In this document: one piece after another, positions 2,509 to 12,838 of the stretch
How the letters are laid out: each line of letters begins with the position of its first letter
Position numbering within the stretch: the first letter of the stretch is position 1
From: a virus
DNA: 21,411 nucleotides
Direction: 5' to 3' (one strand)
IMG/VR virus record: IMGVR_UViG_3300046010_006676
Coordinates: 1-21,411 of that record
Made by a program: the position numbers and the translations under genes
Notes under the pieces: generated by a model
Databases searched by the model: none
What the model was told of the DNA's origin: nothing
What the model saw: the letters and a program-made list of their open reading frames with translations, nothing else

Positions 2509-3651
2509 ATGTCTATAAGACAAATGTTCTTGGGGAGCATAGTTAAGCCGGGGTTCAATCCTCTAGCGGCTCAGACTACAACCACTTTTTACAACTTATA
2601 TAGTTGGGGAAGAAATGGTCAGGGTCAGCTAGGTCTTGGAAATAGAACAGATTATTCATCCCCCAAACAAGTTGGCTCTTTAACTGATTGGTTAACTGTT
2701 GTTGGTGGTCAATACGATAGTTTTTCTGTTAAAAATGATGGTAGTCTTTGGGATTGGGGTTGGAATAATAATGCTCAGTTAGGTCTTGGAAACACGACTC
2801 AATATTCAAGTCCCAAACAAGTTGGCGCTCTTATAACTTGGTCTAAGATAGCAACTTCTAAAGCATATTACTCCACATTAGCTGTTAAAACTGACGGTAC
2901 TTTATGGAGTTGGGGTAACAGTAGTTTTGGTCAATTAGGTCTTGGAAACTTAACAGCTTATTCATCCCCAAAACAAATTGGCGCTTTAACTAATTGGTTA
3001 AGTGTTACTGGTTCTTATGCCTCATTCATGGCAGTAAAAACTAATGGAACATTGTGGGCTTGGGGAAATAATATTAACGGTCAACTTGGACAGGGAAATG
3101 TAACAAGATATTCTAGCCCCAAGCAAATTGGTTCTTTGACTAATTGGTTGCAAGTATCTGGTTGTTATTTAGCAGTTGCCGCAATTAAAACAGATGGAAC
3201 AATGTGGTCTTGGGGCGCTAATAATGAAGGCCAACTAGGTCTTGGTAATGGCACATATTATTCCTCTCCTAAACAGATTGGCGCTTTGACTAATTGGTCT
3301 AAACTTTCTGTAAATGGCGGCAGTAACAATGGTTTTTTAGCTGTTAAAACAGACGGAACATTGTGGGCTTGGGGGTCAAATGGCTCTGGTCAATTGGGCG
3401 ATGGAACTAGAACAAATCGTAATTCTCCTGTACAGATTGGTGCACTAACTAATTGGTCAATTGTTGCTACTGGGCAGGCTTTTTCTCTTTCAATTAAAAC
3501 AGATGGTACTCTTTGGTCTTGGGGTCGAGGAAGTTCAGGTCAATTGGGGTTTAATAATTTAACTTATTACTCTTCCCCAAAACAAGTTGGCTCGTCAACA
3601 ACATGGCTTGCAGTTGCGGCAGGGGAACGACATACTCTGGCTCTAGGATAA
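2509..3651 (+). CDS. RCC1-repeat seven-bladed beta-propeller, copy A1
   Basis: 380 residues. After an N-terminal anchor of about 30 residues (with the motif VKPGFNPL), seven repeats of about 50 residues follow. Each carries a core close to GQLGLGN-T-YSSPKQ-G-LTNW and ends in KTDGTLWSWG, the RCC1 signature. The N-terminal strand (YSWG) and the C-terminal strand (HTLAL) look able to close one ring, giving a seven-bladed propeller. The sixth repeat has SPVQ in place of SPKQ. AGGGGAA upstream is the ribosome binding site. In phages such propellers are probably virion-exposed binding domains; the anchor would hold it to the tail. The ligand is unknown. The coding sequence is AT-richer than the enzyme genes nearby. 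Confidence 0.85.
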   Translation: MSIRQMFLGSIVKPGFNPLAAQTTTTFYNLYSWGRNGQGQLGLGNRTDYSSPKQVGSLTDWLTVVGGQYDSFSVKNDGSLWDWGWNNNAQLGLGNTTQYSSPKQVGALITWSKIATSKAYYSTLAVKTDGTLWSWGNSSFGQLGLGNLTAYSSPKQIGALTNWLSVTGSYASFMAVKTNGTLWAWGNNINGQLGQGNVTRYSSPKQIGSLTNWLQVSGCYLAVAAIKTDGTMWSWGANNEGQLGLGNGTYYSSPKQIGALTNWSKLSVNGGSNNGFLAVKTDGTLWAWGSNGSGQLGDGTRTNRNSPVQIGALTNWSIVATGQAFSLSIKTDGTLWSWGRGSSGQLGFNNLTYYSSPKQVGSSTTWLAVAAGERHTLALG

Positions 3652-3654
3652 ATC

Positions 3655-4821
3655 ATGGCAGTAACAGTAACCACAGGCGTTCAATACTCAGGCATCTGGA
3701 CAATGCAACAGGTGAATGCCGCTATTGCGGCTGGGACTTGGCCTGTCGGAAGCCCTAATCGTTTGTACTCATTTGGTGCAAACAATCAAGGTCAACTCGG
3801 CCTTGGAAATACTACCTCTTACTCATCTCCCAAACAAATTGGGACAGGAAATAGATGGCTTCGTGTCAATGGCGCTATGGATGGCGGTCATATGCTGTCT
3901 GTTTTTTCAACTGGTGCTTTGTATGCTTGGGGTCAAAATGATCGTGGTCAACTTGGTCTTAGTAACAGTTCTTATGGTGTAAGCAGTCCTACTCAAGTTG
4001 GAGCATTGACTAATTGGTCAACAACTTCAGGTGGATATGCTTGTACTCTTGCGGTCAAAACTGATGGTACTTTATGGTCATGGGGACGAGGTGATAATGG
4101 TGTTCTTGGCTTAGGCAATGTTACAGATTATTCATCCCCCAAACAAGTTGGCGCATTGACTGGCTGGTCTTCCGTTGCGGCTGGACAAGATTCTAGCTAT
4201 GCCATTAAAACAGATGGTACTTTATGGGCGTGGGGTTCTGGTGGTTCTGGTGCTTTGGGTCTAGGCAACACTACTAGCTATTCCTCTCCAAAACAAGTGG
4301 GTGCTTTAACAAGTTGGTTGCAAGTGGTTGGTGGTTACGGATGGGCTTTTGCTATTCGTTCTGACAATACAATTTGGGCGTGGGGCAGAGGTGGGCAAGG
4401 TCAGCTTGGAAATAGCAATACATTTGATCGTTCTTCACCAGTTCAAATTGGAGCTTTAACTAATTGGTCTTCTGGCGCGGCTGGTCAACAATCTGGTTAT
4501 GGGATTAAAACCGATGGCACTATGTGGGCATGGGGTAACAATGGTCAAGGTCGTTTAGGAATTGGAACGGCGGTAAACAATTCATCTCCAGTTCAAGTTG
4601 GTGCATTGACTACTTGGTTAAAAGTTTGTTCTGGAAAATATCAAGCGTACGCTGTAAAAACTGACGGGACTTTATGGTCTTGGGGTGACGGAAGTGGTGG
4701 AAAATTGGGTCTTGGAAATACAACAACTTATTCATCTCCAGTGCAAATTGGTTCATCTACCAATTGGATTGCGATACCATCACAAGTTCAAGTCTCATTT
4801 GCCGCAATAACAACAGCATAA
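3655..4821 (+). CDS. RCC1-repeat seven-bladed beta-propeller, copy B1
   Basis: 388 residues. The N-terminal anchor differs from that of the upstream copy: GVQYSGIW, then an Ala-rich helix and GTWP. It is followed by seven RCC1 repeats (YSSPKQ-G...KTDGTLWSWG type). Repeats 5 to 7 carry SPVQ rather than SPKQ. The ribosome binding site AGGA lies inside the last two codons of the preceding gene (Leu-Gly-stop), so the two propellers are probably made in a fixed ratio. No signal peptide is visible. A virion receptor-binding or decoration role is inferred from the phage context and the anchor; an enzyme role is not supported. Confidence 0.85.
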   Translation: MAVTVTTGVQYSGIWTMQQVNAAIAAGTWPVGSPNRLYSFGANNQGQLGLGNTTSYSSPKQIGTGNRWLRVNGAMDGGHMLSVFSTGALYAWGQNDRGQLGLSNSSYGVSSPTQVGALTNWSTTSGGYACTLAVKTDGTLWSWGRGDNGVLGLGNVTDYSSPKQVGALTGWSSVAAGQDSSYAIKTDGTLWAWGSGGSGALGLGNTTSYSSPKQVGALTSWLQVVGGYGWAFAIRSDNTIWAWGRGGQGQLGNSNTFDRSSPVQIGALTNWSSGAAGQQSGYGIKTDGTMWAWGNNGQGRLGIGTAVNNSSPVQVGALTTWLKVCSGKYQAYAVKTDGTLWSWGDGSGGKLGLGNTTTYSSPVQIGSSTNWIAIPSQVQVSFAAITTA

Positions 4822-4825
4822 ACAC

Positions 4826-6598
4826 ATGAACAAAACACTGCACTTCCTCTCTGGCATTCCTCGTTCTGGCTCAACAGTCCTTGCGGCTATCCTGAATCAG
4901 AATCCGATGACTCATGTATCCACCACATCTGGGCTTGTCCACGCCCTTGATGGCTTGGCTAATACATGGCACTCAGCGGGTCTTCTCAATGAGAACGATC
5001 CCACCAGAGAGAAGCTTGCACAGACGATGCGTGGTTGCATTGATGCGTTCTACGAAGATACAGACAAACCTGTCATCATTGACAAGTCTCGTGGCTGGCC
5101 TATCCCCCAGATCATGGGTGCGATGTCTCAGGTGATTGGTCGCCCATGCAAGGTGATTGCTACAGTGCGTCCAGTACCAGACTGCATGGCTTCATTTGTC
5201 CGTGTGGCAAAGCCTGCTGATCTGGATGAGTTTATGTACTCAGGCCAGTTAGCTGACCACTTGAAAGCCGCTTACCTGTCTTTGGAAGCTGGCTACCAAG
5301 CCATGCCAGAGAACTTCCTGTTTGTTGAATACGACAAGCTGTTGGCTGATCCCCGCGCAGAACTTGCCCGTATCCATGAGTTCTTGGAACTTCCCGAATA
5401 CGACTACGACTTCTCCAACATTGATGGCTCATCAGTCAAAGAAGATGACGAGAACCTCCATGGTTACGCTGGTATGCACGATGTCAAACCAGTTTTGGCT
5501 AAACAGCACAACGACAAGTCTAAAGACCTGCTCAAACACCACTACAACCAGTTCTGCCAGCCAGAATTCTGGAGCGGTGGCGTTCGTACCATGCCAGAGT
5601 TGGATGACCTTGATCTACAGGTAGCCGCAGGCAAGATGGGTGACTTTGTTGAAGGCTGGAGACTGTCTGAGAAGCTCCACGCAGAGCGTCCTAACGACCA
5701 CCGTGCGGCTTATAACCGTTCATGGTATTTACTCAAGCAGGGTCAGATTGGCGAAGGCTACAAGCAGATGGATCGTGGTCGCTACTGTGGGATCATTGGT
5801 GAGCGCCGCCCAGACACACCAGCCCCTGAGTGGGACGGTAAGACCAAAGGGACTATCCTCCTGTACTGCGACCACGGCTTGGGCGATCAGATTCACCAAG
5901 TGCGCTATGCCCGTGATTTAGTGGCTAGGGGTAACAAGGTTGTGGTCTGCTGTTCTGGTCAACTGGCTCACTTGTTTGCTGGCATTGAAGGCGTATCCGC
6001 TGTGGTTCAGGTTGGTGCTGAGTTTGGCGTGTTCCACGACTTCTGGTGCTATGGCATGACAGCCCCTAACTACCTTGGCTACGAGATGTCTGATCTGCGT
6101 GGTGATGCTTACATTCCTAAGCCTACGACCATCAAAGGCCGTAAGAAACGCATCGGTATCCGCTGGCAGGGCAACTCAAAGTTTGAAGACGATCACAACA
6201 AGAAGTTCCCTTACGAACTGCTGTTCAACGCCATCAAAGATGCTGACGCAGAATTCATTTCTTTACAGCGTGATGAGGGTGCTGAGGCTTGCCCAACATG
6301 GGTAAAACAAGTACCATTAAACACATGGGCAGACACCCAAGCGGCGGTGGCTAGTTGTGATCTGGTGATCTCTTCTTGCACATCGGTCAGCCATTTGGCG
6401 GCGGCTATGGGCGTTGAGACTTGGGTAGTGATTCCAGTGATGGGCTACTACCTGTATGCACTTGATGGCGACAAGACACCTTATTACGACACCATGACTT
6501 TATTTAGGCAAGAAGTGTTTGGCGAATGGGAAGCTCCGTTTGAGAAGATCAAGGAGCGTTTAAACGCCAATCGTGCCGCACTGAGGAGCGTAGCGTGA
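4826..6598 (+). CDS. Sulfotransferase fused to a GT9/heptosyltransferase-like glycosyltransferase
   Basis: 590 residues with two enzymatic halves. Residues 1-250 are a PAPS-dependent sulfotransferase: the 5'-phosphosulfate loop is PRSGST (12-17), DKSRGW lies at 86-91, and the 3'-phosphate site is the VRP...S segment (114-123). Residues about 260-320 look like one or two TPR-type helices. Residues 340-580 are a GT-B fold domain of the type seen in TPR-linked GT9-like proteins: GLGDQIHQVRYARD (351-364), RIGIRWQGN (442-450) and CTSVSHLAAAMG (518-529). Known relatives of the second half include ADP-heptose:LPS heptosyltransferases, which matters because ADP-heptose genes lie downstream. The acceptor and the sugar donor cannot be read from the sequence. 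It sits between two pairs of propeller genes. Confidence 0.8.
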   Translation: MNKTLHFLSGIPRSGSTVLAAILNQNPMTHVSTTSGLVHALDGLANTWHSAGLLNENDPTREKLAQTMRGCIDAFYEDTDKPVIIDKSRGWPIPQIMGAMSQVIGRPCKVIATVRPVPDCMASFVRVAKPADLDEFMYSGQLADHLKAAYLSLEAGYQAMPENFLFVEYDKLLADPRAELARIHEFLELPEYDYDFSNIDGSSVKEDDENLHGYAGMHDVKPVLAKQHNDKSKDLLKHHYNQFCQPEFWSGGVRTMPELDDLDLQVAAGKMGDFVEGWRLSEKLHAERPNDHRAAYNRSWYLLKQGQIGEGYKQMDRGRYCGIIGERRPDTPAPEWDGKTKGTILLYCDHGLGDQIHQVRYARDLVARGNKVVVCCSGQLAHLFAGIEGVSAVVQVGAEFGVFHDFWCYGMTAPNYLGYEMSDLRGDAYIPKPTTIKGRKKRIGIRWQGNSKFEDDHNKKFPYELLFNAIKDADAEFISLQRDEGAEACPTWVKQVPLNTWADTQAAVASCDLVISSCTSVSHLAAAMGVETWVVIPVMGYYLYALDGDKTPYYDTMTLFRQEVFGEWEAPFEKIKERLNANRAALRSVA

Positions 6599-7728
6599 GC
6601 TTTAGATACGCCGCTGGGATAAACAAGCCCGGGTTCAACCCGCTTGGAACCCAGACTTCTACATTGCTTTACAACCTGTTTAGTTGGGGTAATGGAAACA
6701 ACGGAGCCTTAGGGCTTGGCAATTTAACTTATTACTCATCTCCTAAACAAGTTGGGTCATTGACTAATTGGTCAAAAATTTCTGGTGGAAATCAATTTGT
6801 TTTGAGTACAAAGACAGATGGTACGCTCTGGGCTTGGGGAGATCACGGAGATGGTCAATTAGGGTTAGGAAACTTAATTGGATATTCTTCCCCTAAACAA
6901 GTTGGGTCATTGACTACTTGGTTAAATATAAGCGCAAATTTTAGATCTTCGTTAGCAATAAAAACTGACGGTACTTTATGGGCGTGGGGGTTAAATAGCA
7001 ACGGTCAACTTGGTCTTGGTAACACCACAGGTTATTCCTCTCCTAAACAAGTTGGGTCATTGACTACTTGGGCAAGTATATCTTCCTCACCGCATAGCAA
7101 ACTTAATTTTGCCATTACAACATCCGGCACACTTTATGGCTGGGGTCAAAATACTGACGGACAACTTGGTCTTGGTAATACAACACAGTATTCCTCTCCA
7201 AAGCAAGTCGGTGCTTTAACCAATTGGTTAAAAGTAGCTGGCGGCGCGTACTTTACCCTTGCAGTAAAAACAGATGGTACTCTTTGGTCATGGGGAAATA
7301 GTGCCTATGGACAATTAGGTTTAGGTAATACAACGGCGTACTCTTCTCCTAAACAAATTGGCGCAGGAACAAGTTGGTTAAATATTGCCGCAAATTATGG
7401 AAGTTCTTTTGCTGTTAAAACAGATGGAACTATTTGGGGTTGGGGTTTAAATAATTATGGTCAATTAGGTTTAGGTAACACAACCAGCCGCAACTCTCCA
7501 GTGCAAATTGGTGCATTAACAAATTGGTCAACCATATCTACAAGCGGTGTTGACCAAGGTGGAATGGCTACAAAAACCGATGGGACATTATGGGGTTGGG
7601 GCCGAAATAGTGATGGTCAACTAGGTTTAGGTAACACAACAGATTACTCTAGCCCAAAACAAATTGGGTCTTCAACAACATGGCTTAGAGTGGCTAGTGT
7701 CAACAAGTCTTGCGTGGCTTTAGGATAA
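6595..7728 (+). CDS. RCC1-repeat seven-bladed beta-propeller, copy A2
   Basis: 377 residues starting at GTG, whose last two bases begin the TGA of the upstream gene (GTGA); GAGGAGC lies a few bases before. The anchor (INKPGFNPL, then a Thr/Ser stretch and YNLFSWG) matches that of the propeller at 2509, so these two are paralogues. Seven RCC1 repeats follow, more regular than in the other copies (GQLGLGNTT in most). As in the first copy, the sixth repeat has RNSPVQIG. The protein ends in Ala-Leu-Gly-stop, and AGGA in those codons serves the next gene, exactly as in the first pair. Role as for the other propellers: probable exposed virion protein of unknown ligand. Confidence 0.85.
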   Translation: MSFRYAAGINKPGFNPLGTQTSTLLYNLFSWGNGNNGALGLGNLTYYSSPKQVGSLTNWSKISGGNQFVLSTKTDGTLWAWGDHGDGQLGLGNLIGYSSPKQVGSLTTWLNISANFRSSLAIKTDGTLWAWGLNSNGQLGLGNTTGYSSPKQVGSLTTWASISSSPHSKLNFAITTSGTLYGWGQNTDGQLGLGNTTQYSSPKQVGALTNWLKVAGGAYFTLAVKTDGTLWSWGNSAYGQLGLGNTTAYSSPKQIGAGTSWLNIAANYGSSFAVKTDGTIWGWGLNNYGQLGLGNTTSRNSPVQIGALTNWSTISTSGVDQGGMATKTDGTLWGWGRNSDGQLGLGNTTDYSSPKQIGSSTTWLRVASVNKSCVALG

Positions 7729-7731
7729 AAG

Positions 7732-8886
7732 ATGGCAACCACTCTAGTATCAGGCGTTCAATACTCAGGTATCTGGAACATCAGCAGTCAAGCCAATGCT
7801 AAGGGGGCTGGGACATGGCCTATACCTCCGGGGCCAAGTATATTTTCTTGGGGCCTTGGGACTTCTGGACAGCTTGGCTTGAGTAATACTACAAGTTATT
7901 CATCACCTAAACAAGTTGGTTCATTGTTAACTTGGTTAACAGTCTCAGCGGGTGGAGATTTTTCTTATGGTAAAAAGAATGATGGTTCACTCTGGGCTTG
8001 GGGGTACAATGGTAGTGGTGAATTAGGTTTAGGTGATACCGTACAAAAAAATAGTCCAGTACAAATTGGAACACTTTACAATTGGTCAGTTACGGCAGGT
8101 GGTTATCAACACACAATTGCTACAAAGACTGACGGTACTCTTTGGTCTTGGGGAAATAACAACAGTGGTCAGCTTGGTTTGGGCAATATAACCAATTATT
8201 CATCCCCAAAACAAATTGGAGCTTTAACTACTTGGTTAAATGTTGCCGCAGGTTACAGGTACTCATTTGCAATCAAAACCGATGGAACTTTGTGGTCTTG
8301 GGGCCGTGGGGGGAATGGCGCTCTTGGGTTGGGCAATGTAACAAATTATTCAAGTCCAATGCAAGTAGGCTCGCTTACTAGCTGGTTAAAAGTTGCCTGT
8401 GGGTACAACCAAACTTTGGCTATAAAAACTGACGGAACGCTCTGGTCTTGGGGAAATAATAGTACTGGCGGGCTTGGATTAGGAAATACAACATATTATT
8501 CATCTCCTAAACAAGTAGGTTCTCTAACAAATTGGTTAAGTTTTTCTTGTAGATCAAATCAAACATTAGCAACCAAAACTGATGGTACTTTATGGTCTTG
8601 GGGCGCTAATGCTTATGGACAAATTGGCGATGGCTCGACTACAGATAAATCCTCCCCAGTTCAAATTGGGGCGTTAACTACTTGGTCAGCCGTTGCGGCT
8701 GGTGAGGTGCAGAGCATAGCTTATAAAACTGACGGAACTTTGTGGGGTTGGGGCCGAAATAATGAAGGTCAGCTTGGTCTTGGCAATAGAACAAGCTATT
8801 CTTCTCCCAAACAAGTTGGCTCACTAACTACTTGGTTAGCCATAGCAAGTGGCAGGTATCACACCTTAGCTATTAAAAACACTTAA
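7732..8886 (+). CDS. RCC1-repeat seven-bladed beta-propeller, copy B2
   Basis: 384 residues. The anchor (SGVQYSGIW ... GAGTWP) matches that of the propeller at 3655, making this the second B-type paralogue. Seven RCC1 repeats follow; repeats 2 and 6 carry SPVQ in place of SPKQ. The ATG lies three bases after the preceding stop. The last repeat closes with GRYHTLAIKNT, suggesting the usual strand-sharing closure of the ring. The gene is followed by a 26-base gap with a strong ribosome binding site and then by the enzyme operon. No catalytic motif is visible. Confidence 0.85.
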   Translation: MATTLVSGVQYSGIWNISSQANAKGAGTWPIPPGPSIFSWGLGTSGQLGLSNTTSYSSPKQVGSLLTWLTVSAGGDFSYGKKNDGSLWAWGYNGSGELGLGDTVQKNSPVQIGTLYNWSVTAGGYQHTIATKTDGTLWSWGNNNSGQLGLGNITNYSSPKQIGALTTWLNVAAGYRYSFAIKTDGTLWSWGRGGNGALGLGNVTNYSSPMQVGSLTSWLKVACGYNQTLAIKTDGTLWSWGNNSTGGLGLGNTTYYSSPKQVGSLTNWLSFSCRSNQTLATKTDGTLWSWGANAYGQIGDGSTTDKSSPVQIGALTTWSAVAAGEVQSIAYKTDGTLWGWGRNNEGQLGLGNRTSYSSPKQVGSLTTWLAIASGRYHTLAIKNT

Positions 8887-8912: not shown

Positions 8913-9302
8913 ATGACACATTATGTACAAGTCCTCAATGGTGAGGTAAAACAAGTTTGGGACACACCTCCATCTGAAGGTGTCGGTAACAACGGCTGGC
9001 GTAACGCTGTCGAAGTTCGTCCTGCTATTCAAGCCGGTCGCCAAGGCTACACAGCCCACCGCTTTGACTTGAACGCTGACCCCGTGCAGATCATCTGGGA
9101 CACCTACGAAATCTCCGTAGATGACCGCAAAGGTGGCATGAAGTCTAACGCTGGCTTTGAGTTCCAGATGGTTGTGAACCAACAGGCTCGTAACCCTGCG
9201 ACTTATGATGCCGCCGCCATTGAAACTGCTCGTCAGGCTATGGTTGCCAAGCAAGCCGCTATTGATGCTTGCACTACGCACGACCAGCTAGACGCTCTGT
9301 GA
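8913..9302 (+). CDS. Hypothetical phage protein
   Basis: 129 residues, starting at ATG after an excellent AAGGAG at 8901-8906. The N-terminal half is strand-rich (YVQVLNGEVKQVWDTPP, then an Arg/Pro-rich segment). The middle has QIIWDTYEISVDDRKGG, and the C-terminal third is an Ala/Gln-rich helix. The overall plan, a small strand-rich head and a helical tail next to fibre genes, recalls tail-fibre assembly or chaperone proteins, but I cannot name a family. The strong ribosome binding site and its place directly after the propellers suggest high expression. Its stop overlaps the start of the methyltransferase by four bases. Confidence 0.6.
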   Translation: MTHYVQVLNGEVKQVWDTPPSEGVGNNGWRNAVEVRPAIQAGRQGYTAHRFDLNADPVQIIWDTYEISVDDRKGGMKSNAGFEFQMVVNQQARNPATYDAAAIETARQAMVAKQAAIDACTTHDQLDAL

Positions 9303-9865
9303 AGCTCAACCTTGGCTGTGGGTATAACAAGCTAGACGGCTACATCAATGTAGACCATGACCCTCTATGCAATCCTGATATGGTTGCTGACTTAGAGGGT
9401 ACGCTCCCATTTGAAGACAGCACGGTTGATGAGATCGTGTTGTCTCATGTGCTTGAGCATCTTGGGCAGGATACCAAGACATACCTCAATATCTGGCGCG
9501 AGTTCTATCGTGTGCTAAAAGATGGTGGCAAGGTTCATATTGTCGTACCCCACCACAATCACGACAACTTTCACCATGACCCTACCCATGTTCGCAAAGT
9601 CACGCCTCTTGGGGTTGATATGTTCAGCCAAGAGAGAAACATGGAGACTATCCGCACTGGTGGTCAAGAGACTACGCTAGGGTTACAGGTAGGGATTGAC
9701 ATTGGTGTAACGGAAGTTGGCTACGATCTGACCCCTTGGTTTCAACAGCATATTGCAGGAAAACCACAGGATTGGGCAGAGCGTGAGTTGAATAAGTACA
9801 ACAACACTTGTTTTCAGGTGAAAATAAATGCTCAGGCATTTAAACCACCAAGGAGCAAAAGATGA
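9299..9865 (+). CDS. Class I SAM-dependent methyltransferase
   Basis: 188 residues from the GTG at 9299, which overlaps the previous TGA by four bases (GTGA). I prefer this start to a TTG 30 bases upstream because the protein then begins KLNLGCG, the SAM-binding glycine loop, directly at the N terminus, as in other small members. Asp-19 after the second strand would bind the ribose, and SHVLEHL (49-55) is the typical post-strand-4 motif of the Methyltransf_11 family. A His-rich segment (PHHNHDNFHHDP, 84-95) follows. The substrate is unknown; in this cluster a sugar or glycan O-methylation is the natural guess. No clear ribosome binding site, so translation probably depends on coupling. Confidence 0.8.
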   Translation: MKLNLGCGYNKLDGYINVDHDPLCNPDMVADLEGTLPFEDSTVDEIVLSHVLEHLGQDTKTYLNIWREFYRVLKDGGKVHIVVPHHNHDNFHHDPTHVRKVTPLGVDMFSQERNMETIRTGGQETTLGLQVGIDIGVTEVGYDLTPWFQQHIAGKPQDWAERELNKYNNTCFQVKINAQAFKPPRSKR

Positions 9866-10647
9866 AGAGAATTTTAGTTATGGGGTTACCCGGGGCGGGC
9901 AAGACCACCCTAGCCCAATACATCCTTGACCACTTGCAAAACGAACGCAAGACCGTCATGTGGCTCAACGCCGATGATGTGCGCAAGAAGTTCAACGACT
10001 GGGACTTCTCCCACGAAGGTCGCATTCGCCAGAGCCTGCGTATGCGTGAGCTTGCTGACAGCTACGATGTAGATTATGTGATCTGCGACTTTGTTGCTCC
10101 TCTTGTTGAGATGCGTAACAACTTCAAAGCTGACTGGACTATCTGGGTTGACACCATCAATCAAGGTCGTTTTGAAGACACCAACAAGGTGTTCGTTCCT
10201 CCTAAAGAATATGACTTCAGGATCACCGAGCAGAAGTCTGAGAAGTGGGGTGAGTTTATTGCCGCGCACATTTTGGATGACCGCCGCCGCCCTGTATTTG
10301 ACTGGCAAAAAGAAACAGTCCAGATGCTTGGCAGATGGCAACCTTGGCATGAAGGCCACCGTAAACTGTTTGAACGGGCGTTAGCTAAGACTGGTCAAGT
10401 TGTGATCCAGATCAGGGACTGCCAAGGCTGGAACGGCTCTAACCCGTTTGCCGCCAATCAGGTCAAAGAGTTTATTAGCCGTGATCTAGACCCCCTGTAT
10501 CAAGGACAGTACGAAGTTCAATTGGTTCCTAACATTGTCAACATTACCTACGGGCGCGATGTTGGCTACAAGATTGAGCAGGAATCTTTTGACGATGCTA
10601 CCCACGCTATCTCGGCAACCAAGATACGCAAAGAGATGGGTTTGTGA
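9862..10647 (+). CDS. APS-kinase-like domain fused to HxGH nucleotidyltransferase
   Basis: 261 residues, ATGA overlap with the methyltransferase. Residues 1-140 resemble adenylylsulfate kinase (CysC): Walker A GLPGAGKTT (8-16), NADDVRKKF (36-44) in the place of the usual Asp-Gly-Asn substrate loop, and FSHEGR-IRQSLR (49-60). Residues 150-261 form a compact nucleotidyltransferase: LGRWQPWHEGH (156-166) with the catalytic HxGH and ISATKIRKEM (250-259), the ISxTxxR signature shared by NMN adenylyltransferases, cytidylyltransferases and ATP sulfurylases. The domain order equals that of animal PAPS synthetase, but the second domain is far shorter than ATP sulfurylase. Making PAPS for the upstream sulfotransferase is plausible. 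CysC homologues can also phosphorylate other nucleotides, so the substrate is not settled. Confidence 0.75.
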   Translation: MKRILVMGLPGAGKTTLAQYILDHLQNERKTVMWLNADDVRKKFNDWDFSHEGRIRQSLRMRELADSYDVDYVICDFVAPLVEMRNNFKADWTIWVDTINQGRFEDTNKVFVPPKEYDFRITEQKSEKWGEFIAAHILDDRRRPVFDWQKETVQMLGRWQPWHEGHRKLFERALAKTGQVVIQIRDCQGWNGSNPFAANQVKEFISRDLDPLYQGQYEVQLVPNIVNITYGRDVGYKIEQESFDDATHAISATKIRKEMGL

Positions 10648-11081
10648 TTGTCTTCACCAATGGATGCTTTGATGTGCTCCACCGTGGTCACATCGAGTAT
10701 CTCAAAGAGTCCCGCAAACTTGGGACTAGGCTAGTTGTGGGGTTGAACTCAGACGCTTCTGTTAAGAGGCTCAAGGGTGATAGCAGACCTATCAACAATC
10801 AGGATGACCGCAGAGCACTGTTGCTGGCGCTCAGGTGTGTAGATCAGGTGGAAATCTTCGAGGAAGATACGCCACTAGAGTTGATCATGCGAATCAACCC
10901 TGACATCATTACCAAAGGTGGTGACTACCAGCCTGCTCAAGTTGTGGGACACGCTATTGTTCAGAAAACAGTTATCATTCCATTTTTAGACGGGTATTCA
11001 TCAACAAGGATTATCCATGCGGTTAAAAGGAATAGTGGAGAAGGGTTGGGGTTCGGAGCTAATCTGGGCAACCAACGATAA
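10644..11081 (+). CDS. rfaE2: D-glycero-beta-D-manno-heptose 1-phosphate adenylyltransferase (HldE C-terminal type)
   Basis: 145 residues, GTG start with GTGA overlap. It transfers AMP from ATP to heptose 1-phosphate to make ADP-D,D-heptose. The full signature is visible: TNGCFDVLHRGH (5-16) with HxGH, GLNSDASVKRLKG (33-45), RPINNQDDRR (48-57), the KGGDY motif (91-95) and SSTRII (119-124). In Escherichia coli this is the C-terminal half of HldE; here it stands alone and precedes the kinase half. The last 22 codons or so (after RIIHAVKR) overlap the start of the cupin gene and look like an added tail. Glycerol-3-phosphate cytidylyltransferase is related but lacks the RPIN-Q-DRR and KGGDY pattern. 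Confidence 0.85.
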   Translation: MIVFTNGCFDVLHRGHIEYLKESRKLGTRLVVGLNSDASVKRLKGDSRPINNQDDRRALLLALRCVDQVEIFEEDTPLELIMRINPDIITKGGDYQPAQVVGHAIVQKTVIIPFLDGYSSTRIIHAVKRNSGEGLGFGANLGNQR

Positions 11082-11379
11082 ATACTGCGGAAAGCTGATG
11101 ACCTTTCGCAAGGGTGCTAAGTTTTCCATGCACTTCCACGCTGAGAAAGACGAGACTTGGCTAGTCCAAGGTGGTCTGTTCAAGGTCATCTGGATTGACA
11201 CCAAAGATGCCAGTCGCCATGAAAAGATTCTCAACATTGGGGACACATGGCACAACCCACCATTATTGCCACACCAGCTAGTCTGCCTAACAGCAGGTGT
11301 GATCTTGGAAGTCTCAACTGCTGACTCTGTGGAGGATAACTACCGAGTCGAAACAGGAGACAGCCAATGCGCATCCTAG
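11017..11379 (+). CDS. Cupin, sugar-isomerase (mannose-6-phosphate isomerase C-domain) like
   Basis: 120 residues with a single cupin barrel. KGWGSELIW (9-17) followed by GKLMTFRKG is the opening motif of the cupin domain of type II phosphomannose isomerase/GDP-mannose pyrophosphorylase proteins. HFHAEKDET (39-47) and PHQ (85-87) supply the likely metal ligands His-39, His-41, Glu-46 and His-86. EVSTADSVEDNYR matches the family's C-terminal end. The ATG at 11017 has AAGGA at 11005-11009, and the WGSE motif requires a start here, so the 65-base overlap with the adenylyltransferase gene looks real. Its substrate is not readable; a sugar phosphate or nucleotide sugar of the heptose pathway is the contextual guess. 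Confidence 0.75.
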   Translation: MRLKGIVEKGWGSELIWATNDKYCGKLMTFRKGAKFSMHFHAEKDETWLVQGGLFKVIWIDTKDASRHEKILNIGDTWHNPPLLPHQLVCLTAGVILEVSTADSVEDNYRVETGDSQCAS

Positions 11380-12080
11380 TTGTTGGCGATGGTTGCATAG
11401 ACGAATACCGCTATGGCGAGATACGAAGGGTAAACCCTGAATCTACTGCGCCCCTCCTAAACTTTGAAAAAAGCGAAGAGAAGATGGGCATGGCGTTTAA
11501 TGTTGCTCAAAACCTTCAGGCGTTTGGTGCTGAAGTCACTTTGTGCGTAAGCGACGAGATATCCCGCAAGATCAGATACATTGACCGTAGGACTGGTGAG
11601 CACCTTCTGAGGGTTGATCAAGATGTCGAAGCTACGCCCTACGACTTTGGCGTGCCCATGGAGGGGTTTGATGCCATTGTGATCTCTGACTACAACAAGG
11701 GACATGTGCTTGACGAGGTTGTTTTGCAGTTGCGCCAGCAGTTTGAGGGGCCAATCTACATGGACACCAAGAAACGCAACTTGGCAGACTTTCCTGACAT
11801 CTACATCAAGATCAACCAGCGCGAACTGTACGACTCTACCTCACTGCCTGATTCAGAATATCTGATAGTCACCTATGGCGCTAAGGGCTGTGGATACAAG
11901 GACAAGCTATATCCTGCCAAGCCTATTGAGGTGGTTGATGTTTGTGGGGCTGGTGATGTGTTTCTTGCCGCGATGGTGGTCAAGCACCTAGAGACTGGCG
12001 ACATGGGCATAGCTTTGCCGTTTGCTAACGAAAAAGCGGCAATATCTTGCCAGAGTCTAGGAACTGTATGCGTATCTTGA
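11367..12080 (+). CDS. rfaE1: D-glycero-beta-D-manno-heptose 7-phosphate kinase (HldE N-terminal type, shortened)
   Basis: 237 residues of the PfkB/ribokinase family, ATG overlapping the cupin gene by 13 bases, with CAGGAGA upstream. VVGDGCIDEYRYGEIRRVNPE (5-25) matches the HldE opening, MAFNVAQNLQAFGAEVTL (42-59) stands for its GGAANVA sugar site, and HLLRVDQD (79-86) is its conserved later strand. KINQREL (148-154) and VVDVCGAGD (189-197), with the catalytic Asp-197, complete the active site. The end, LGTVCVS, also matches the family. It is about 80 residues shorter than the E. coli kinase domain, and much of the loss lies between residues 60 and 68, where the family has an extra subdomain. 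It makes heptose 1,7-bisphosphate; the shortened form may still be active since the catalytic motifs are kept. Confidence 0.8.
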   Translation: MRILVVGDGCIDEYRYGEIRRVNPESTAPLLNFEKSEEKMGMAFNVAQNLQAFGAEVTLCVSDEISRKIRYIDRRTGEHLLRVDQDVEATPYDFGVPMEGFDAIVISDYNKGHVLDEVVLQLRQQFEGPIYMDTKKRNLADFPDIYIKINQRELYDSTSLPDSEYLIVTYGAKGCGYKDKLYPAKPIEVVDVCGAGDVFLAAMVVKHLETGDMGIALPFANEKAAISCQSLGTVCVS

Positions 12081-12838
12081 TCACTGGTTACAAGGGGTTT
12101 ATTGGTCAAAACATGGTCAAGGCGCTGTCTGACCACGAGTTAGACCTGTGTGATTGGGGCGACGAGTATTCCCTCTATGGCATAGACAGGGTGATCCACC
12201 TTGGCGCGATCTCGGATACAAGATGTCAGGACTGGTCGGCTTTGCGTAAGCAGAACTTCTCGTTCTCAGTGACTTTGATGGAGCGTTGCCAGAAGTATGG
12301 CATCCCTATTCAGATAGCATCCTCCGCATCGGTCTATGGCCCCCACAACACGACATTTTGCGAGACTGACCCAGTAGCACCAGCTAACCTTTACGCTGAG
12401 TCTAAGGCGCTTGTTGAGAACTATTTCCACAATATGCGCCCTGAGTCGCCTGTTCAGATATTCAGGTACTTTAATGTGTATGGCCCCCACGAGGATCACA
12501 AGGGCGATCAGGCTTCACCCTTTCACAAGTTCCGTGAGCAGGCAAAAACAGGAACTATCAAGATATTTGAGGGAAGTTCTGAGTTTAAGAGAGACTTTAT
12601 CCATGTGGATAAGGTCATCGATGTGCACAAAAAATTTTTTAAGATTAAAGAATCTGGCATTTGGAATGTAGGCACTGGAAATATATTGTCATTTGAGGAT
12701 GTTGCACACTTGGCAAGCGCTGAATTTCCAGCGAAAATAGAGACAATCCCGATGCCCAAAGATTTAACTGGGTATCAAAAATTCACCAAGGCTGATATGC
12801 ACAAATTACAGGCAACCTTGAATGAAAGACTGGGCTGA
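12068..12838 (+). CDS. hldD: ADP-L-glycero-D-manno-heptose 6-epimerase
   Basis: 256 residues of the extended short-chain dehydrogenase family. I chose the ATG at 12068 (AGGAA at 12059-12063) because it puts the NAD(P)-binding GYKGFIG (7-13) at the N terminus; it overlaps the kinase gene by 13 bases, like the previous pair. Other motifs: HLGAISDT (44-51), SSASVYG (85-91), catalytic Tyr-109 and Lys-113 in LYAESK, FRYFNVYGPHEDHKG (122-136), FEGSSEFKRDFIHV (157-170) and the late NVGTGN. The HKG and EFKRDF motifs point to HldD rather than to a generic UDP-sugar epimerase. It converts ADP-D,D-heptose to ADP-L,D-heptose, the donor for LPS core heptosyltransferases. It is about 50 residues shorter than the E. 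coli enzyme. Confidence 0.85.
   Translation: MRILITGYKGFIGQNMVKALSDHELDLCDWGDEYSLYGIDRVIHLGAISDTRCQDWSALRKQNFSFSVTLMERCQKYGIPIQIASSASVYGPHNTTFCETDPVAPANLYAESKALVENYFHNMRPESPVQIFRYFNVYGPHEDHKGDQASPFHKFREQAKTGTIKIFEGSSEFKRDFIHVDKVIDVHKKFFKIKESGIWNVGTGNILSFEDVAHLASAEFPAKIETIPMPKDLTGYQKFTKADMHKLQATLNERLG

Follow-up and report, generated by a model that had tools for sequence, protein, structure and literature searches.

A sulfotransferase–GT9-like glycosyltransferase fusion of phages and its linkage to RCC1-repeat genes

The protein described here resembles known enzymes in each of its halves. The N-terminal half resembles the tyrosylprotein sulfotransferases TPST1/2 and the family Sulfotransfer_3 (PF13469) in its family match, its PAPS motifs, and its best PDB relatives. 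The C-terminal region aligns with the GT-B fold GT9 heptosyltransferases WaaC, WaaF, WaaQ, and WaaU of E. coli. TibC is a bacterial autotransporter heptosyltransferase of the GT-B type, which transfers heptose from ADP-D,D-heptose onto repeat-rich surface proteins (PMC4358343). Two cyanophage proteins, one from BUCT-ZZ01 (UTS52179) and the TPR protein of S-SRM01 (QPX48303), have the same GT domain at ~26–34% identity, and both adjoin RCC1 genes. In BUCT-ZZ01 a methyltransferase takes the place of the sulfotransferase (ST), and in S-SRM01 the ST is a separate gene. In the literature searched, which covered papers available without subscription, no assigned role was found for phage sulfotransferases, and no description of this system came up under these enzymes or under RCC1 and phage.

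The window is the whole stretch of 21,411 nucleotides of the IMG/VR virus record IMGVR_UViG_3300046010_006676. The fusion gene in it consists of the following parts.

4826..6598, + strand: sulfotransferase / TPR-like / GT-B (GT9-like) fusion protein, 590 aa
4826..5575, + strand: sulfotransferase domain, residues 1–250 (Pfam; PHROG 27463; PDB profile search)
4859–4876, + strand: PRSGST motif, residues 12–17, 5'-PSB loop
5168–5194, + strand: R115-x7-S123, 3'-PB R...S motif
5618..5782, + strand: TPR-like stretch, residues ~265–319 (C-half profile against designed TPR proteins, E 4e-13)
5849..6580, + strand: GT-B, GT9-like domain, residues ~342–585 (hhalign; invariant GT9 columns; conservation)

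The open reading frame is intact from ATG to stop. The earlier note had read it as a single protein, half sulfotransferase and half GT-B; this is confirmed, and the arrangement is conserved across many phages. The full-length fusion was found again in dozens of IMG/VR contigs. A viral scan with the fusion gave 60 loci. A further scan, by alignment, picked up 378 relatives, and 80 of these were retained. The frame is open across the junction in all 40 loci read by script, and 146 ORFs with both domains were seen in a profile scan, a number in which some contigs recur. These facts indicate that the junction is neither a frameshift nor an assembly artefact. Among GTDB genomes, two MAG contigs carry the fusion with 60–67% identity and are probably phage sequence, and the remaining 60 bacterial matches are the ST half alone. 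Contigs L136 and L137, which carry the fusion and are likely phage, are binned as Halothiobacillus and a betaproteobacterium. In a tree of 28 representatives, the ST domains of the fusions group together in a single clade (100/99). The fused GT domains form one group in a quick tree, with one exception, a row cut off where its contig ends. Both trees are consistent with one fusion event. In S-SRM01, AG-345-E08, and L437, one cluster encodes the two domains as separate genes, and the halves of the fusion probably act in one pathway.

The N-terminal half passes the Pfam cut-offs of both Sulfotransfer_3 (55.4 bits; cut-off 27) and Sulfotransfer_1 (PF00685; 37.6 bits; cut-off 22). All 33 fusion homologues aligned have PRSGST and R115-x7-S123 unchanged. 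Sixteen bacterial sulfotransferases keep both motifs, save for S/A at position 14 and S/T at position 16. The closest PDB relatives of the ST profile are TPST1/2 (E 6e-12). Unlike TPST1/2, the fusion is phage-borne, has a GT attached, and has T33/T34 at the position aligned with the catalytic Glu. The catalytic base differs between sulfotransferase families. The sulfotransferase site had been called complete; this holds for the PAPS motifs but is not established for the whole site, because the TPST Glu position is Thr.

The two C-terminal motifs quoted previously, GLGDQIHQ (residues 351–358) and RIGIRWQGN (residues 442–450), are present. This half reaches no Pfam family cut-off, and its best family is GT9 (PF01075), with 11.4 bits against a cut-off of 22. 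By profile-profile alignment with hhalign, it matches WaaC/WaaF/WaaQ/WaaU at 91% (E 9e-7, 73 columns), while the control set of GT4/GT30 gives 0.3%. A plasmid-encoded TPR-GT relative (L332) clears the PF01075 cut-off with 27.2 bits. The C-terminal half thus appears distantly but specifically related to GT9.

WaaC D13, K192, D261, and H266 are invariant GT9 residues. At these positions the fusion has D354, K459, C518, and H523, respectively. The hhalign block gives the counterparts of D261 and H266; those of D13 and K192, which lie outside the 73 aligned columns, were matched by eye. With this assignment, three of the four residues of the GT9 heptosyltransferases would be kept. The fusion differs from these enzymes in the Cys, in scoring below the Pfam cut-off, and in the TPR-like stretch preceding the domain. 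The label GT9-like is therefore weakly backed, by the profile match and the TPR-GT intermediates, but not by the Pfam score or by the residue at position 518.

The replacement of WaaC Asp261 by Cys and of the TPST Glu by Thr implies that the donor chemistry may differ or that the activity may be altered. They would also fit a protein in which one half has lost its catalytic role and now acts in binding, as when the GT half recognizes RCC1 for the sulfotransferase. This is improbable, as D354, K459, H523, PRSGST, R115, and S123 are all invariant in the 33 fusions, and Cys at position 518 is also seen in some cellular TPR-GT proteins of Azospirillum. By analogy, TibC could be a model for how the GT half works, although TibC has no sulfotransferase and was not matched in the PDB search with the C-half profile. 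TibC itself has an iron site and forms a ring oligomer.

The genes on both sides of the fusion encode RCC1-repeat proteins.

2509..3651, + strand: RCC1-repeat protein, KPGFNPL-type N-terminus (Pfam RCC1, E 4e-68)
3655..4821, + strand: RCC1-repeat protein, GVQYSGIW-type N-terminus (Pfam RCC1, E 3e-62); ends 4 nt before the fusion
6595..7728, + strand: RCC1-repeat protein, KPGFNPL-type N-terminus, GTG start (sequence; homologues)
7732..8886, + strand: RCC1-repeat protein, GVQYSGIW-type N-terminus (sequence; homologues)
6595..6598, + strand: GTGA, in which the fusion stop overlaps the GTG start of the RCC1 gene that follows

These four genes make two pairs (2509–4821 and 6595–8886), each with one KPGFNPL-type and one GVQYSGIW-type member. 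The two N-termini are perhaps two types of anchor. A small protein at 1440–1784, amid tail genes, matches PHROG 858 (starvation-inducible transcriptional regulator).

An RCC1-repeat gene is the near-obligate partner of the fusion, which the earlier note missed. It is present in 134 of 134 fusion loci, a count in which contigs repeat since two overlapping scans were pooled. In the second scan, taken as the main set, an RCC1 ORF lies at most 300 nt away for all 74 GT ORFs. The final four bases of the fusion, GTGA or ATGA, open an RCC1 frame in 41 of 76 counted ORFs. In loci seeded with an RCC1 gene, every one of the 43 of at least 15 kb has a GT or ST, and four have the heptose gene. When, as a control, 78 loci were seeded with heptose adenylyltransferase, RCC1 was seen in 17 of the 18 with the GT and in none of the 60 without it. 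In INPHARED, strong RCC1 matches are rare overall and occur in three of four distinct GT phages.

The linkage extends beyond the fusion. The GT, either unfused or fused to a methyltransferase, adjoins RCC1 genes in unrelated phages too. The related GT fused to a methyltransferase (BUCT-ZZ01 and kin) has RCC1 in 69 of 80 loci. The related TPR-GT encoded as a separate gene (S-SRM01 kin) has RCC1 in all 47 loci and ST in 36 of them. In S-SRM01 and AG-345-E08, an RCC1 gene is directly upstream of the ST gene. The BUCT-ZZ01 protein (L198:7857–9572) is annotated as hypothetical.

The near-obligate RCC1 gene makes the phage's own proteins at least as good a candidate for the acceptor as the host surface. 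The adjacency of RCC1 in the tail-gene region of many freshwater phages suggests sulfated sugars on the phage's own surface proteins and not just heptose production for the host surface, and the position among tail genes places the RCC1 proteins probably on the virion. With about even confidence, the fusion is proposed to be a bifunctional enzyme that modifies the RCC1-repeat beta-propeller proteins of the phage with sugar and sulfate. The TPR-like/GT9-like half would transfer a sugar onto RCC1 proteins or onto a glycan on them. The donor might be heptose in phages with a heptose cassette and a host sugar in others. The N-terminal half would then move sulfate from PAPS, and in many phages an APS-kinase-like protein may assist sulfation. 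The proposal is favoured, too, by the ST half having protein-tyrosine sulfotransferases as its best solved relatives and by the precedent of TibC. This role in RCC1 modification is based on linkage and homology; from these we infer that the two halves are catalytic, which donor and acceptor they use, in which order they act, and that RCC1 is on the virion. Linkage to RCC1 is not the same as substrate identity; the genes could just share a late operon. The loci are also not independent, because the aquatic phages carrying the cluster may share ancestry.

More tentatively, and with some doubt, it can be speculated that phages encode a protein modification system whose modular, fused enzymes add sugar and sulfate (or methyl groups) to RCC1 beta-propeller proteins of the virion. 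If so, there would be phage particles bearing sulfated glycoproteins. The fixed ST-GT fusion tied to RCC1 in several phage groups offers a concrete acceptor candidate, and phage RCC1 proteins, labelled 'chromosome condensation', gain a more plausible surface role.

The tyrosine before S-x-P is seen in 78% of RCC1 repeats in fusion phages (loci L062–L135) versus 4% in GT-methyltransferase phages. These tyrosines were considered as the sulfate acceptor and dropped, as the RCC1 proteins of ST-bearing S-SRM01-type phages are without them.

Downstream of the second RCC1 pair are the following genes.

9269..9865, + strand: SAM methyltransferase; homologue of the domain at the C-terminus of the BUCT-ZZ01 GT-methyltransferase fusion
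9862..10647, + strand: APS-kinase-like P-loop kinase fused to HxGH nucleotidyltransferase
10644..12838, + strand: heptose cassette of HldE-C-like adenylyltransferase, cupin, HldE-N-like kinase, and HldD-like epimerase (NCBIfam)

The heptose cassette, ~4 kb downstream of the fusion, had been taken as a link between the fusion and heptose. The cassette is real in the window, although its HldE-C, HldE-N, and HldD matches fall below the curated NCBIfam cut-offs. At 10644–12080, the HldE halves are separate genes in reversed order, with the cupin gene between them. The fusion recurs in other phages, but with heptose genes in only 7 of 25 long fusion records. Among the 29 loci whose downstream sequence extends for 8 kb or more, 10 have heptose genes and 26 have the APS-kinase-like gene. 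This distribution leaves the link to heptose weak and rules out the cassette as an obligate partner.

The same data bear on the host surface as the acceptor. The fusion might add heptose and then sulfate to host LPS or capsule, by which receptors would be altered or other phages excluded. The cassette, the GT9 kinship, and bacterial ST relatives in Rhodanobacteraceae that occur without RCC1 point in this direction. The low frequency of heptose genes beside the fusion, the 60 of 78 heptose-gene phage loci without this GT, and the placement of the fusion between RCC1 genes with overlapping start and stop make it unlikely.

It is also possible, though quite unlikely, that the fusion makes or decorates a free glycan, which other enzymes attach to virion fibres, with RCC1 as one of several carriers. 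The clusters of S-SRM01 and L437 contain further glycosyltransferase-like genes, and that of S-SRM01 also a nucleotide-sugar epimerase, which speaks for this reading. Against it, no further glycosyltransferase was seen among the scanned proteins of the window.

Returning to the modification of RCC1 proteins, the APS-kinase-like gene tracks the ST in RCC1-seeded loci, being present in 12 of 49 with ST and 0 of 18 without. Its kinase part matches APS kinase models over part of their length only, so that its role in PAPS supply is tentative. In L437, the genes for the kinase and the separate ST share 8 nt. The HxGH nucleotidyltransferase part of 9862–10647 resembles NMN adenylyltransferase, and many relatives consist of the kinase alone.
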